From: Winogradskyella immobilis
GTDB taxonomy: Bacteria; Bacteroidota; Bacteroidia; Flavobacteriales; Flavobacteriaceae
NCBI RefSeq assembly: GCF_021887715.1
Contig: NZ_JAIQXX010000008.1
Span: 1-64,000 of the forward strand
DNA length: 64,000 nt
Direction of reading: 5' to 3'
Position 1 is the stretch's first letter. Each line of letters starts with the position of its first letter. Below, piece after piece: positions 11,059 to 63,369 of the stretch. The notes under the pieces are model-generated. The model had not been told where the DNA came from, ran no database searches, and saw nothing but the letters and a program-made list of their open reading frames with translations. The translations under genes and the position numbers were made by a program.

Positions 11059-11805
11059 TTGAGATATTTTATCCAATTATCATATAATGGAGCAGCGTAT
11101 CATGGCTGGCAAATTCAGCCTAATGCAAATACAGTTCAGGCGACTATTGAGAATGCTTTGTCCACATTATTAAATAGTAAAATAAGCATAGTTGGTGCTG
11201 GTAGAACGGATGCAGGTGTGCATGCTTCTGAGATGATTGCACATTTTAATTTTGATGCAAAAATTGATACTACAGATCTTAGATACAAGCTTAATTCGTT
11301 TTTACCAAAAGATATAGCTATTGCTTCAATATATAAAGTTAACCCAGATGCTCACGCTCGTTTTAATGCAATACAACGCACATATAATTATAGAGTTTCT
11401 ACATTAAAAAATGTATTTGAATATGATTACGCCTACTATATGCATTTGCCTTTAAATATAGAAAAGATGAATGCTGCTAGTGAAATTCTATTAACCTATA
11501 GAGATTTTCAATGTTTTTCTAAAGTTAATACAGATGTAAAGACGTATAATTGCGCTATAAAAAAAGCGTTTTGGGTAAAAGAAAAAGATCAACTTATTTT
11601 TACCATTAGTGCAGATCGCTTTTTAAGAAATATGGTAAGAGCTATTGTTGGAACGCTAATTAATATTGGTTTAGGTAAAATAGAGGTAGAAGAGATGCAT
11701 ATTATTATTGCTTCAAAAAAACGAAGTGAAGCCGGATATTCTGTGCCAGCACAAGGCTTATATTTAACAGAAGTGAAATATCCCGAAGATATACGAATAC
11801 ACTAG
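11059..11805 (+). CDS. truA: tRNA pseudouridine synthase A (TTG start)
   Basis: Makes pseudouridine at positions 38-40 of tRNA anticodon arms. The 248 residues include the catalytic aspartate in GAGRTDAGVHA (D51) and the conserved N-terminal IQLSYNGAAYHGWQ. The start is TTG: an in-frame TAA lies at 11047-11049 with no ATG between, and any downstream ATG would remove the conserved first strand. It is separated by one base from the ABC exporter gene downstream, implying co-transcription. Confidence 0.95.
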   Translation: MRYFIQLSYNGAAYHGWQIQPNANTVQATIENALSTLLNSKISIVGAGRTDAGVHASEMIAHFNFDAKIDTTDLRYKLNSFLPKDIAIASIYKVNPDAHARFNAIQRTYNYRVSTLKNVFEYDYAYYMHLPLNIEKMNAASEILLTYRDFQCFSKVNTDVKTYNCAIKKAFWVKEKDQLIFTISADRFLRNMVRAIVGTLINIGLGKIEVEEMHIIIASKKRSEAGYSVPAQGLYLTEVKYPEDIRIH

Positions 11806-11806
11806 A

Positions 11807-13573
11807 ATGGCAGAAAAAGGAAGAGAAATATTTGATGTAACGTTGTTTAAAAGGTTATTAACCTTTATTAAACCCTACCGATTAATATTTATTGTCTCTA
11901 TACTCTGCGTTGTAGGTTTGGCTGTTTTTGGTGCATTAAAACCAAGGGTTTTACAAGAAGCTATAGATACCCAAGTGGCACTTAAAAAGTATGATGGGTT
12001 TGTTTTCTATATAGGCATTATGCTTGGCTTATTAGTGTTAGAAGTGATTTGTCAGCTCTTTTTTATTTACTATGCAAGTTGGTTAGGCCAATCTGTTGTA
12101 AGAGATATTAGAGTGAAGTTATTTAAGCACATGCTTAAATTTAAAATGACATATTACGATAAGTCTTCAGTAGGTGTTTTAATTACAAGAGCAGTGACTG
12201 ATATGGAGCGTATTGCAGATATATTTGGTCAAGGACTTTTTATGATTTTCAGTGATATACTGAAAATGGCAGTTGTTGCAGGTTTTATGATTGCTATGAA
12301 TCTAAAATTAAGTTTAATCGTATTTATAACATTACCGTTAGTAGTTGTAGCTACTAAAATTTTTCAGCGTTATATGAAGCAAGCGTTTGAAGATGTACGT
12401 ACTGAGGTTTCTAATTTAAACTCTTTTGTACAAGAACGAGTTACAGGTATGAAAATCCTTCAATTATTTACAAGAGAAGCTACTGAATACAGAAATTTTA
12501 AAACCATTAACGAACGTCATAAAAAAGGATGGTTAAAAACAGTATGGTATAATTCTATTTTCTTTCCTATTGCAGAATTTTTGTCTTCTCTAACAATGGG
12601 AGTAATTATTTGGATAGGAGGACTTAACGTGGTAAGTACACAAACAGCATCTGTTGGTGAGTTAATGGCTTTTATAATGTTTATACCAATGTTGTTTAGA
12701 CCATTAAATCAAATTGCTAATAAGTTTAATACACTACAAATGGGTATGGTTGCTGCAGATCGTGTATTTAAAGTATTAGATACGGAATCTCAACTTGACG
12801 ATACGGGTACTGTTGAAGCCACGCATTTTAAAGGAGACATAACGTTTAATAACGTATATTTTTCATACATAGAAGATGAAGAAGTACTTAAAGGAATATC
12901 TTTAAACATAAAAGCAGGTGAAACTGTTGCTATTGTTGGAGCTACAGGAGCAGGCAAATCGACGATTATAAATTTGTTAAACCGTTTTTACGATATTAAT
13001 TCTGGTGTTATAAAAATTGATGACATTGATATTAAAGATATGCGATTAGCAGCTTTAAGAAGTCAAATAGCAGTAGTATTACAAGATGTTTTTTTGTTTG
13101 CAGATACGATTTTAAATAATATCACTTTAAACAACCCAGAAATATCTGAAGATGATGTTATAGAAGCAGCGAAAGCAATCGGGATACATAAATTTATATC
13201 TAGCCTTCCTAACGGTTATCATTACAATGTAAAGGAACGAGGTGTAATGTTGTCTTCTGGTCAACGTCAACTCATTTCGTTTTTAAGAGCCTATGTCACC
13301 AATCCAAGTATTTTAATTTTAGATGAAGCTACTTCTTCTGTAGATTCGTATTCAGAACAGCTTATTCAAGATGCTACAGATACCATTACAAAAGGCAGAA
13401 CATCTATTGTTATTGCGCATCGTTTAGCTACCATTCAACAAGCAGATAAAATCATTGTTATGGATGCAGGTAAAATTGTAGAACAAGGCACACATCAATC
13501 ACTTCTAGAAAAAGACAATGGGTATTATAAAAACCTATATGAAGTTCAGTTTTTAAAGGCTGAAGCAGTTTAA
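11807..13573 (+). CDS. ABC exporter, fused membrane and ATPase domains
   Basis: A 588-residue half-transporter of the MsbA/lipid- and multidrug-exporter type that works as a dimer. Six transmembrane helices span about residues 20-310. The nucleotide-binding domain has Walker A VGATGAGKST (about 376-385), a Q-loop at VLQDVFLFAD, Walker B ILILDEATSSVD and an H-loop IAHRL. The signature motif reads LSSGQ rather than LSGGQ. It starts one base after the truA stop. Substrate cannot be told from sequence. Confidence 0.92.
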   Translation: MAEKGREIFDVTLFKRLLTFIKPYRLIFIVSILCVVGLAVFGALKPRVLQEAIDTQVALKKYDGFVFYIGIMLGLLVLEVICQLFFIYYASWLGQSVVRDIRVKLFKHMLKFKMTYYDKSSVGVLITRAVTDMERIADIFGQGLFMIFSDILKMAVVAGFMIAMNLKLSLIVFITLPLVVVATKIFQRYMKQAFEDVRTEVSNLNSFVQERVTGMKILQLFTREATEYRNFKTINERHKKGWLKTVWYNSIFFPIAEFLSSLTMGVIIWIGGLNVVSTQTASVGELMAFIMFIPMLFRPLNQIANKFNTLQMGMVAADRVFKVLDTESQLDDTGTVEATHFKGDITFNNVYFSYIEDEEVLKGISLNIKAGETVAIVGATGAGKSTIINLLNRFYDINSGVIKIDDIDIKDMRLAALRSQIAVVLQDVFLFADTILNNITLNNPEISEDDVIEAAKAIGIHKFISSLPNGYHYNVKERGVMLSSGQRQLISFLRAYVTNPSILILDEATSSVDSYSEQLIQDATDTITKGRTSIVIAHRLATIQQADKIIVMDAGKIVEQGTHQSLLEKDNGYYKNLYEVQFLKAEAV

Positions 13574-42746: not shown

Positions 42747-42820
42747 TGTCAGGTTGAGCGCAGTCGAAACCTATTAAAATATAGTTATACAGAGACCTTT
42801 CGACTGCGTTCAAGGTGACA
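42747..42820. repeat. Palindromic intergenic repeat, family A (GAGCGCAGTCGAAA)
   Basis: A 74-bp inverted repeat. The left arm contains GGTTGAGCGCAGTCGAAAC; the right arm contains TTTCGACTGCGTTCAAGG, followed by TGACA. Copies of the same core occur inside icmF (52941-52960) and, degenerate, at 55015-55030 and 61457 onward. It lies between the type III glutamine synthetase and purM genes. Confidence 0.88.
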
Positions 42821-51526: not shown

Positions 51527-54500
51527 ATGATACAAGTCGCACCATATAAACCAAAATATAAAGTACGTATAGTAACCGCAGCATCACTCTTTGATGGGCA
51601 TGATGCAGCGATAAACATTATGCGCCGCATTATACAATCTACTGGTGTAGAGGTGATTCATCTTGGCCATGATAGAAGTGTTGAAGAAGTTGTTAATACA
51701 GCAATTCAAGAAGATGCTAATGCCATTGCGATGACGTCTTATCAAGGAGGTCATAATGAGTATTTTAAATATATGTATGACTTGCTGAATGAAAAAGGTG
51801 CAGGTCATATAAAAATCTTTGGAGGTGGAGGAGGAGTTATTCTACCTGAAGAAATCAAAGATTTAATGGATTATGGTATTACCAGAATCTATTCGCCAGA
51901 TGATGGAAGAGAACTTGGTTTGCAAGGGATGATTAACGATTTGGTAAAACAATCGGATTATGCAATAGGTGATAGTTTAAATGCTGAAGTTAAAATTCTT
52001 CAAGATAAAAACCCTAAAGCAATTGCTAGAGTCATTTCCGCAGCAGAGAATTTTCCAGAAGTTGCAAAAGATGCTTTAGAAACGATTCATAATAAAAATA
52101 AGACGTCAAAGACACCAGTTCTTGGTATAACAGGAACAGGTGGTGCAGGAAAATCGTCTTTAGTAGATGAATTAGTGCGACGCTTTCTAATTGATTTTCC
52201 TGAGAAAACAATAGGTCTTGTTTCTGTTGATCCTTCAAAACGAAAAACAGGAGGTGCGTTATTAGGAGATCGTATTCGTATGAATGCAATTAACTCACCA
52301 CGTGTTTATATGCGTAGTTTGGCAACACGTCAATCTAACTTAGCATTATCTAAATATGTTAATGAAGCTATTGAGGTTTTAAAAGCCGCAGAATACGATT
52401 TAATTATATTAGAAACTTCTGGTATTGGTCAGTCAGATACTGAGATCATGGAGCACAGTGATGTGGCTTTATATGTAATGACACCAGAATTTGGTGCAGC
52501 AACTCAGTTAGAGAAAATCGATATGTTAGATTTTGCTGACTTGGTAGCGATTAACAAGTTTGATAAACGTGGTTCTTTAGATGCGTTACGCGATGTGAAA
52601 AAACAATATATGCGTAATAATAACCTTTGGGATATTCCGCAAGATCAATTACCAGTATATGGCACAATAGCTTCGCAATTTAATGATCCAGGAATGAATA
52701 CGCTTTACAAAGCCATTATGGATAAATTGGTTGAAAAAGCAGACTCAGAGTTAAAATCGACTTTCGAGATTTCGAAGGAAATGAGCGAGAAGATTTTTGT
52801 GATTCCACCGAGTAGAACACGTTATTTATCTGAGATAGCAGAGAACAATCGTGCTTATGATAAGAAAGCAAATGAACAAGTTGAGGTTGCTCAGAAATTA
52901 TATGGTATTTATAAAACGATTTGTTCTGTAGGGAATGTCTCCTTGAGCGCAGTCGAAAGGTCTTTTATTGGGAAATTAGGGTTAAATGAAGATGAGATCC
53001 TGAATCAAGTTCAGGATGACACCACAAGAGAGTTTTTAAATCTTTTAATTAAAGAATTCGATCGTGTAAAACTAAACTTAGACCCATACAATTGGGAAGT
53101 GATTACAGGTTGGGATGAAAAAGTAAATAAATATAAAAACCCAATCTATTCTTTTAAAGTAAGAGATAAAGAAATAAAAATAGAAACGCATACCGAGTCA
53201 TTATCGCATACGCAAATACCAAAAGTAGCTTTACCTAAGTATCAAGCTTGGGGAGATATTTTAAGATGGTGCTTGCAAGAAAATGTTCCAGGAGAATTTC
53301 CGTATGCTTCAGGATTATATCCTTTTAAGAGAACAGGAGAAGATCCAGCACGTATGTTTGCTGGTGAAGGTGGACCAGAACGTACAAACAAACGTTTTCA
53401 TTACGTAAGTATGGGTTTACCAGCAAAACGTTTATCAACTGCTTTTGATAGTGTAACGCTATATGGTAACGATCCAGATTTAAGACCAGATATTTATGGT
53501 AAAATTGGTAATGCAGGAGTCTCTATTTGTTGTTTAGACGATGCTAAGAAACTTTATTCAGGTTTTGATTTAGCAAACGTGATGACCTCTGTGAGTATGA
53601 CCATTAATGGGCCAGCACCAATGTTGTTAGGTTTCTTTATGAATGCTGCCATAGATCAACAATGTGAGATTTACATTAAAGAGAATGGTTTAGAAAAAGA
53701 AGTAGAAAATAAGATTGCTAAACTCTACAAAGGTAAAGAACGCCCAAGATATAATGGGGAACTTCCAGAAGGTAATAATGGTTTAGGTTTAATGCTTTTA
53801 GGTGTTACAGGTGATCAAGTATTACCAGCAGATGTCTATTTAGATATTAAAACTAAAACAATTGCTCAGGTTAGGGGTACAGTACAAGCAGATATATTAA
53901 AAGAAGATCAAGCGCAAAACACCTGTATATTTTCAACGGAATTTGCGTTGCGATTAATGGGAGATGTGCAAGAGTATTTTATTGAGAATAATGTTCGTAA
54001 TTTTTATTCGGTTTCTATTTCTGGGTATCATATTGCCGAAGCAGGTGCCAACCCAATTACGCAATTAGCATTAACCTTATCAAATGGATTTACTTATGTA
54101 GAATACTATTTGAGTAGAGGTATGGATATCAATAAATTTGGTCCAAATTTATCGTTCTTTTTCTCAAACGGAATAGATCCAGAATATGCAGTAATTGGTC
54201 GTGTAGCTCGTAAAATATGGGCAAAAGCATTAAAACATAAATATGGCGCAAATTCTAGAGCGCAGATGTTAAAATATCACATCCAGACTTCTGGACGTAG
54301 TTTGCATGCACAAGAAATTGACTTTAACGATATACGTACTACGCTTCAAGCCTTATATGCTATTTATGACAATTGTAATTCGTTACATACAAATGCATAT
54401 GATGAAGCGATTACAACGCCAACAGAAGAGTCTGTACGTCGCGCCATGGCAATTCAACTAATTATTAATAAGGAATTAGGTTTAGCGAAGAATGAAAATC

Positions 54501-63338: not shown

Positions 63339-63369
63339 GACCTACAAGGTTTTTGAAACCTTGCAGGTC
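63339..63369. repeat. Palindromic repeat GACCTACAAGG/CCTTGCAGGTC
   Basis: Inverted arms GACCTACAAGGTTT (63339-63352) and AAACCTTGCAGGTC (63356-63369), differing at one position. A T-run follows on the plus strand. It may act as a terminator but has the look of a widespread Bacteroidota intergenic repeat. It lies between the DJ-1 gene and the helical-bundle gene. Confidence 0.8.

Follow-up and report, generated by a model that had tools for sequence, protein, structure and literature searches.

The window, a stretch of 64,000 nucleotides from Winogradskyella immobilis, contains an icmF gene whose product joins a B12-binding domain (Pfam, residues 14-109), a MeaB-type GTPase (residues 164-398) and an acyl-CoA mutase (best stretch of the MM_CoA_mutase match, residues 775-1139), and which matches the fused isobutyryl-CoA mutase PDB 4xc6 with 1370.6 bits. 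In the structure 4xc6, from C. metallidurans, a linker connects the GTPase and mutase parts (PMC10481361). Residues 458-521 of the protein encoded in the window are unaligned to 4xc6, and the MeaB match ends at residue 398. The initial annotation had placed a repeat in the linker between the GTPase and mutase domains, and this position was confirmed: positions 52937-53021 lie inside the icmF reading frame and encode residues 471-499 (VSLSAVERS...ILNQVQDD) in frame. The segment consists of GTCTCCTTGAGCGCAGTCGAAAGGTCT, 30 bases, and GAGATCCTGAATCAAGTTCAGGATGACA. The ten codons in the middle are native, since the K-x-G-(I/L) motif that they encode is also present in repeat-free icmF kin and G485 is invariant in all 22 aligned IcmF proteins. 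A structure prediction was of too low quality for use (mean pLDDT of 43, 22 rows).

The left (27 nt) and right (28 nt) ends of the segment correspond to two distinct REP hairpins, each with a TGTC tag and facing in opposite directions. Their tags form the outer ends (52936-52939 on the plus strand, 53018-53021 on the minus strand), and both REPs point outward. In the genome of the strain (3,006,726 bases in 82 contigs), the left core TGAGCGCAGTCGAA occurs at 46 places and the right core CAAGTTCAGGATGAC at 11 places with at most one mismatch, against one place for each reversed control. Both ends of the segment thus match dispersed repeats, in agreement with the earlier proposal that a dispersed palindromic repeat is translated in frame within icmF. 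The left core is also shared with the intergenic palindrome at 42747-42820, as had been suggested, and is found there once on each strand (Table 1). This head-out pair folds at -17.1 kcal/mol (z -5.63), with none of 200 shuffles folding as well. The second palindrome of the initial annotation, ATCCTGAA-N5-TTCAGGAT, likewise proved real, with a perfect 8-bp stem, a 5-nt loop and a folding energy of -6.4 kcal/mol (z -3.18; 0/200 shuffles as good). The left hairpin alone folds weakly (-1.0 kcal/mol; 163/200 shuffles as good), and the whole 85 nt fold no better than shuffled sequences (52/200 as good). In the left REP, a variable stem surrounds TGAGCGNAGTCGAA, which is nearly constant. Across 45 of its 46 places in the genome (one was dropped by identical-context removal or by the regex), the stem arms covary, with 159 of 180 cells paired, compared to 109 on average and at most 127 in shuffles (0/2000 as many). 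Some left-type REPs of this genome (L064, L068, L062, L063) seem to be nested in the loops of other palindromes, as in gatatcctgaat-[REP]-tttcaggatc.

Table 1. Positions of the icmF gene, its repeats and related features; coordinates refer to the window unless another locus is named.
Feature	Position	Strand	Basis
icmF, fused B12-binding / MeaB-type GTPase / acyl-CoA mutase, 1146 aa	51527..54967	+	ORF, Pfam, PDB 4xc6
Left REP: TGTC tag and imperfect hairpin, TGAGCGCAGTCGAA family, VSLSAVERS, residues 471-479	52936..52963	+	46 own-genome places
Native linker core between both REPs, residues 480-489	52964..52993	+	K-x-G-(I/L) motif also in repeat-free kin
Right REP: TGTC-ATCCTGAA-CTTGA-TTCAGGAT-CTC; on the plus strand EILNQVQDD, residues 490-498	52994..53021	-	11 own-genome places, perfect stem
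Intergenic head-out pair of left-type REP, reference copy	42747..42820	none	Sequence, fold, cores C81:42755+ / 42799-
RAYT-HemF fusion	L161 5441-6958	minus	Y1_Tnp domain match
RAYT-HemF fusion	G000:C8 near 11440-12960		

Variability of the repeats is also found in the icmF linkers of related species. We collected 104 icmF genes, which gave 102 distinct genes after merging identical linkers; 11 of the 80 named kin loci yielded no linker by regex. Rows of the same-genus congeners coincide in the tree with W. thalassocola and another Winogradskyella, which places the window in this genus. Depending on the species, the left nonapeptide reads VTLSAVERS, VTSSAVEMS, VIASEAKQS or VISNESEKS, and the right site reads ILKQVQDD, ILRYAQDD or LRQAQGD. 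A third linker position carries VILSGVEG in Flavobacterium and VSSSAVEN in Gaetbulibacter. As in the genomic copies, the arms of the left repeat compensate each other: across all 29 left icmF sites recovered by one regex, 89 of 145 cells are paired (shuffles: mean 66.7, maximum 81, 0/2000 as many), and a smaller test with 20 of the 29 sites, one of them shifted by a codon, gave 77/100 paired cells and a shuffle maximum of 72.

The repeat cores are concentrated in the linker. Using core patterns that were chosen after the linkers had been inspected, we found exact GAGCGNAGYCGA 12 times in the linkers of the 102 genes and never in the rest of the gene, which comprises about 22-fold more sequence (17 vs. 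2 at up to one mismatch). The corresponding exact counts are 5 vs. 0 for CTGAANCAAGTTCAG and 2 vs. 0 for CTTCGACARGCTCAG, with 2 vs. 1 and 2 vs. 0, respectively, at exactly one mismatch, so that the three cores together account for 19 exact matches in linkers and none elsewhere. Reversed core patterns were absent from the 102 genes at up to one mismatch and from their linkers at up to two. The plus-strand matches of the left core at up to two mismatches share one reading frame in 26 of 27 cases, and several repeat types stand in the same codon register. A blastn search free of such choices, comparing 81 icmF genes with 968 intergenic pieces from the 80 named kin loci, showed a modest lead for the linker: at 36 bits or more, the linker bins were matched by 5 and 3 pieces and every other 60-nt bin by at most one, and at 32 bits or more by 8 and 4 pieces compared to at most 6 in other bins. 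With a larger library of 1071 pieces, which included own-genome loci selected for bearing the repeat, the linker bins reached 23 and 15 vs. 6. Bins near the end of icmF and near base 240 have many matches to one or two pieces, which look like paralogous coding fragments rather than repeats.

The repeats change the length of the protein only slightly. The initial annotation had anticipated a gap of 28-29 residues relative to other IcmF proteins, and this was not borne out, as the linker of the window's icmF has 37 aa and the 20 listed repeat-free short linkers have 26-30 aa. A full 27-nt insertion would add 9 residues and the whole segment 28; the gain seen in the window relative to repeat-free near kin is about 8. 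N-terminal to the K-x-G motif, every one of the 20 listed repeat-free short alleles has 8 residues, compared with 14 in each of the 15 listed left-repeat alleles. On its C-terminal side, the listed repeat-free short alleles have 14-18 residues and 13 of the 15 left-repeat alleles have 18-19; the other two, L014 and L081, have 34 because of a further stretch. The linkers of these two alleles reach 52 aa through this in-frame stretch (KGNVIPTEGGTTDEES in L014, KGVAISTEGGTTEEES in L081), which is probably another repeat family. Among the Flavobacterium genes with a third-site repeat, 3 of 4 have linkers of 33 aa, equal to 8 listed repeat-free kin, and the fourth (L149) is 6 residues longer. L147 and L142, two Flavobacterium genes with 93.0% DNA identity outside the linker, differ in one tract of about 35 nt with no change in length. 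Long alleles without a recognisable core (35-37 aa) are about as long as the repeat-bearing ones. The allele lists used for these length comparisons were hand-picked, and two alleles counted as repeat-free (L126 and L141) match a core at two mismatches, which we took as chance. Kin differ through most of the linker, and no clean pair of empty and filled alleles was found at the two sites of the window; compared with L022g, for example, its protein is 96.9% identical outside the linker and 53 of 120 linker bases are alike. Such alleles could have arisen by an insertion that was later trimmed, by direct conversion, or by recombination that transferred a linker.

On a tree of 101 icmF proteins, calculated without the linker, the repeat-bearing genes are scattered. 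Of three rows marked for omission from this tree, two had already disappeared when identical linkers were merged. A core is found in the linkers of 34 of the 101 genes at up to two mismatches, of which about 3 are expected by chance according to an estimate from counts outside the linker, and in 22 at up to one mismatch; these distributions require at least 26 and at least 17 changes, respectively. The segment therefore does not represent residues common to most homologues and written in unrelated codons. A single clade of the 31 long linker alleles is rejected (AU test, p 1e-4), and 22 changes between length classes are needed, with L106, L132 and L143 left without a long or short call. This number is hardly lower than that obtained with shuffled labels (mean 26.8, minimum 21 in 200 shuffles), and some of the scatter may thus reflect tree error or recombination. 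The gene nearest to that of the window is L082 by the flanks (0.86) and L080 by the linker (0.79), and for repeat carriers in general, the nearest kin by linker often differ from the nearest kin by the rest of the gene. Linker alleles are accordingly largely uncoupled from the remainder of icmF. A search for a recent recombination donor yielded no pair with linkers clearly more alike than the flanks (best excess of about 2 points).

Among 31 congeners, 27 contain TGAGCGNAGTCGAA, with 0 to 64 places per genome. TCGAGNGNAGTCGAGA is present in 32 of 38 genomes. The host of L084 has 32 places and that of L110 has 27, and the icmF genes of both bear the TCGAGNGNAGTCGAGA stem type or a decayed form of it. 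In contrast, genome G003 (L012) has a decayed left repeat in icmF, yet no left-type and 3 TCGAG-type places in the genome, and G010 (L018) has no GCGAGYGAAGCGAAGC-type place at up to one mismatch other than the one in icmF; both counts argue against a simple match of repeat type between host and gene. K-mer scans with a mixed coding background were uninformative.

We consider it probable that the icmF linker serves as a site where small TGTC-tagged REPs land recurrently, and that they were captured repeatedly in different lineages. Several REP subfamilies would have entered at a few linker positions, where they would replace native codons or add slightly to them and then decay by point mutation, and linker alleles would seemingly have been exchanged between lineages. 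The gene in the window would be one outcome of this process, in which two unrelated REPs with outward tags came to lie on either side of a conserved native motif and are both translated. We infer repeated capture together with recombination rather than one ancient insertion, and the filter acting on captured repeats may simply be an open reading frame and a tolerated linker. For IcmF, the repeats most likely represent tolerated linker variation.

The competing explanation with the most in its favour, which we nevertheless regard as rather unlikely, is that one or two ancient insertions in an ancestor of the flavobacteria were followed by decay and by linker recombination among species, with no repeated capture. 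It would account for the long alleles of 35-37 aa that have no recognisable core, for the discordance between linker and gene relationships, and for the stem of L096, in which a left arm of one type is combined with a right arm of a different type. As L096 offers a mutational path between stem types, some of the differences in repeat type could indeed be due to drift in place. However, the differences between stem types are compensated between the arms, linkers of the VIASEAKQS kind are set in an ESV background (L018, L090, L092) while most others have CSV, and other types occupy another linker position in Flavobacterium and Gaetbulibacter. The left repeats of L124 and L013 are alike in 27 of 27 bases, although the two genes use the same codon at only 404 of 838 conserved amino acids outside, which is also difficult to reconcile with an old common insertion. 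Across carriers, the codon identity of the left REP exceeds the gene average in only 8 of 28 pairs (uncorrected P < 0.05; best 0.0014), which weighs against the preferred reading.

It is very unlikely that the 85 bp, as the initial annotation had supposed, are one mobile palindromic element (a REP doublet with spacer) that entered icmF in a single insertion. The outward tags are spaced as in intergenic doublets, e.g. 42747-42820 and C22:62718+/62763-, and given this head-out spacing, the two REPs may possibly have been captured as one unit. A search of the strain's genome with the 85 bp gave 12 matches (40 of 53 candidates scored), namely the segment itself, 8 that cover just the left end and 3 that cover just the right end; none of the 11 others extends over both ends, the 30-nt spacer encodes the native motif, near-kin linkers are about 8 and not 28 aa shorter, and right-type REPs occur in short linkers without the left-site REP of the window (e.g. 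L134, L116). We find it even less credible that the repeats are kept for a function of the DNA or RNA, such as an mRNA hairpin or a protein-binding site, with the peptide being incidental. The compensating arms at the icmF site would fit such a role, but the capture of intact copies from genomic families would produce compensation anyway; the left hairpin on its own folds no better than shuffled sequences, the right one is a simple stem, and 67 of the 101 genes lack a core at up to two mismatches. A chance or convergent likeness of linker codons to intergenic repeats can practically be dismissed. Native linkers at the third site do already resemble the REP reading (e.g. ILPSGIAEH vs. VILSGVEGL), but linkers are identical to intergenic copies over 27 of 27 bases (L124 vs. 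L050) and 25 of 25 bases (L134 vs. L116), and the exact cores are confined to linkers. A more specific mechanism is conceivable, which we put forward as a doubtful possibility: instead of being inserted, REPs would overwrite native codons without changing the length, in a templated, conversion-like manner guided by short similarity, and REP-like linkers (V-x-x-S-x-V-E) would be converted repeatedly. If so, repeat DNA would be a standing source of in-frame linker variation for housekeeping enzymes throughout a bacterial family.

Insertion of a Rickettsia palindromic element typically adds the whole element to the protein. The linkers studied here lack a gain of this size: relative to repeat-free kin of the same group, three of the four Flavobacterium carriers gain nothing, L149 gains 6 residues and the icmF product of the window about 8. 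No single longer palindromic insertion was present among the linkers read. They also differ from the Rickettsia case in having 9 codons per element and a recurrent position. Both systems have palindromic repeats between genes and also within housekeeping proteins, where they are read in frame (here 6 of 45 copies in ORFs), and the parallel drawn by the initial annotation is apt, as the right REP agrees in most features with the CGTC/TGTC superfamily, to which RPE-4 and RPE-6 belong (PMC3733652, accessible text; for the Rickettsia elements it cites Ogata et al. 2002 and Claverie and Ogata 2003). According to the accessible parts of that paper, CGTC repeats have an unpaired CGTC tag at one end, with TGTC or CCTC as allowed variants, an 8-9 bp stem that starts with complementary A, T pairs, a loop of 4-5 nt, and unpaired tails that in most but not all cases fit CCA (PMC3733652). 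Both REPs of the window have the TGTC variant of the tag, and the right one has A-T first pairs, an 8-bp stem and a 5-nt loop; its tail is CTC instead of CCA. The left family departs further, with a variable, bulged stem, a second pair other than A-T and a 6-nt loop. Opposite-orientation pairs and copies inside ORFs are further points in common with the CGTC repeats, which are not known to have a dedicated transposase (PMC3733652, in part), and short dispersed intergenic hairpins that also form opposite-orientation pairs are shared with REPIN/RAYT systems as well (PMC2817692, PMC3116915, PMC6006769, as far as accessible).

The repeats in icmF are of different types, recur across the Flavobacteriaceae and are not specific to one strain, and the initial annotation was too narrow in this respect. 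We take the G. forsetii named in print to be Gramella forsetii, a flavobacterium. CGTC repeats have already been reported for Bacteroidetes and for G. forsetii, REPs of the CGTC/GTAG kind inside ORFs (including RPE-4 and RPE-6) are known, and the proposal that flexible linkers or loops tolerate REPs has been published too (Di Nocera et al. 2013, PMC3733652, accessible text). What differs here is that several REP types have probably entered one and the same linker again and again within a bacterial family. In a literature search mostly at title and abstract level, we found no report of repeats in icmF, and for the repeated use of one linker by several REP types only the remark that two Xanthomonas recB genes carry REPs at about the same site (PMC3733652, in part). 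In its accessible portion, the same survey lists intragenic REPs genome by genome and leaves open whether they reflect chance survival or recurrence. The IcmF linker, which lies between the G-protein chaperone and the mutase, can be traced in some 100 genomes, where it has several repeat types or none, so that insertion vs. replacement, as well as the decay and recombination of peptides encoded by repeats, can be tested directly. For annotation, it should be borne in mind that short peptides of flavobacterial proteins, such as VILSEVEG, VIASEAKQS or ILKQVQDD, can stem from the translation of repeat DNA and may lead alignments astray.

Repeats are also found inside other genes. In the genome of the strain, 8 of the 45 left-type copies lie in ORFs of at least 100 aa and 6 of 45 in ORFs that we took as real genes, i.e. 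those for IcmF, RNase R, adenine deaminase, dihydroorotate dehydrogenase, a PurL-like protein and one protein without a Pfam match. The other two are located in a 105-aa ORF and in the start-proximal stretch of an ORF that we read as HisIE-like. The repeat lies between Pfam domains in adenine deaminase and PurL and inside one in RNase R and dihydroorotate dehydrogenase. In RNase R of the same genus, for which 23 of 30 loci could be parsed, 6 of the 23 carry palindromic repeats at one loop. Three of the 23 have the left type (two exact cores and one with one mismatch), L206 has the same core as the left repeat with another stem and reading frame, and L198 and L200 have palindromes unrelated to the left repeat. 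The palindromes of L198, L200 and L206, from three species, are in frame at the same loop; the loop is much shorter in 4 of the 23 loci.

A RAYT was considered as the mover of the left-type REPs and rejected, as the one Y1-like gene found in the strain has another palindrome at its borders and the number of left-type places does not follow the presence of the gene, which also sets these repeats apart from REPIN/RAYT systems. The genome contains one weak Y1 transposase match (22.2 bits, below the cut-off), which is the N-terminal part of a 505-aa ORF, the remainder being HemF. Palindromes of the ACCTN..AGGT type, unlike the left REP, flank this gene on both sides, and left-type copies are found farther away, beyond hemF and the next ORF. 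Among the congeners, G001, G016, G020 and G022 have 35-64 left-type places (35 in G016 and 38 in G020) and no match to the RAYT-like protein of the strain, whereas G003 has a RAYT-like gene and no left-type places. G014 also has no left-type places, yet two clear Y1 matches (PF01797). PF01797 had no match in G001, G016 and G020 and also missed the RAYT-like gene of G003, so these misses are weak evidence, and a distant Y1 enzyme could have escaped this profile. Some CGTC repeats are described as having no associated transposase genes (Di Nocera et al. 2013, PMC3733652, accessible text).

The RAYT/Y1-like domain (HUH motif 'NHYH', 'YIHRNP'; Y1_Tnp with 20.4 bits, below the cut-off) is fused in frame to HemF. 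A RAYT-like domain was matched in 12 of 31 Winogradskyella genomes, including that of the strain, as one open frame of 490-529 aa in each, and one of the 12 has a second, short match with a stop. The stretch between the two domains is palindromic in 11 of the 12 loci read (gacctgtcaggttttgaaaacctgacagg and variants), and in the genome of the strain a palindrome of the gacctgtcaggttttgaaaacctgacagg type lies directly upstream of the fusion gene. The arrangement looks like a REPtron whose downstream REP may be translated as the linker of a heme-synthesis enzyme; the literature searched, as far as accessible, contained no report of such a fusion. The palindrome bounding the RAYT-HemF gene has a further copy in the window at 63339-63369 (gacctacaaggtttttgaaaccttgcaggtc), with two overlapping matches at up to three mismatches where 0.08 are expected.
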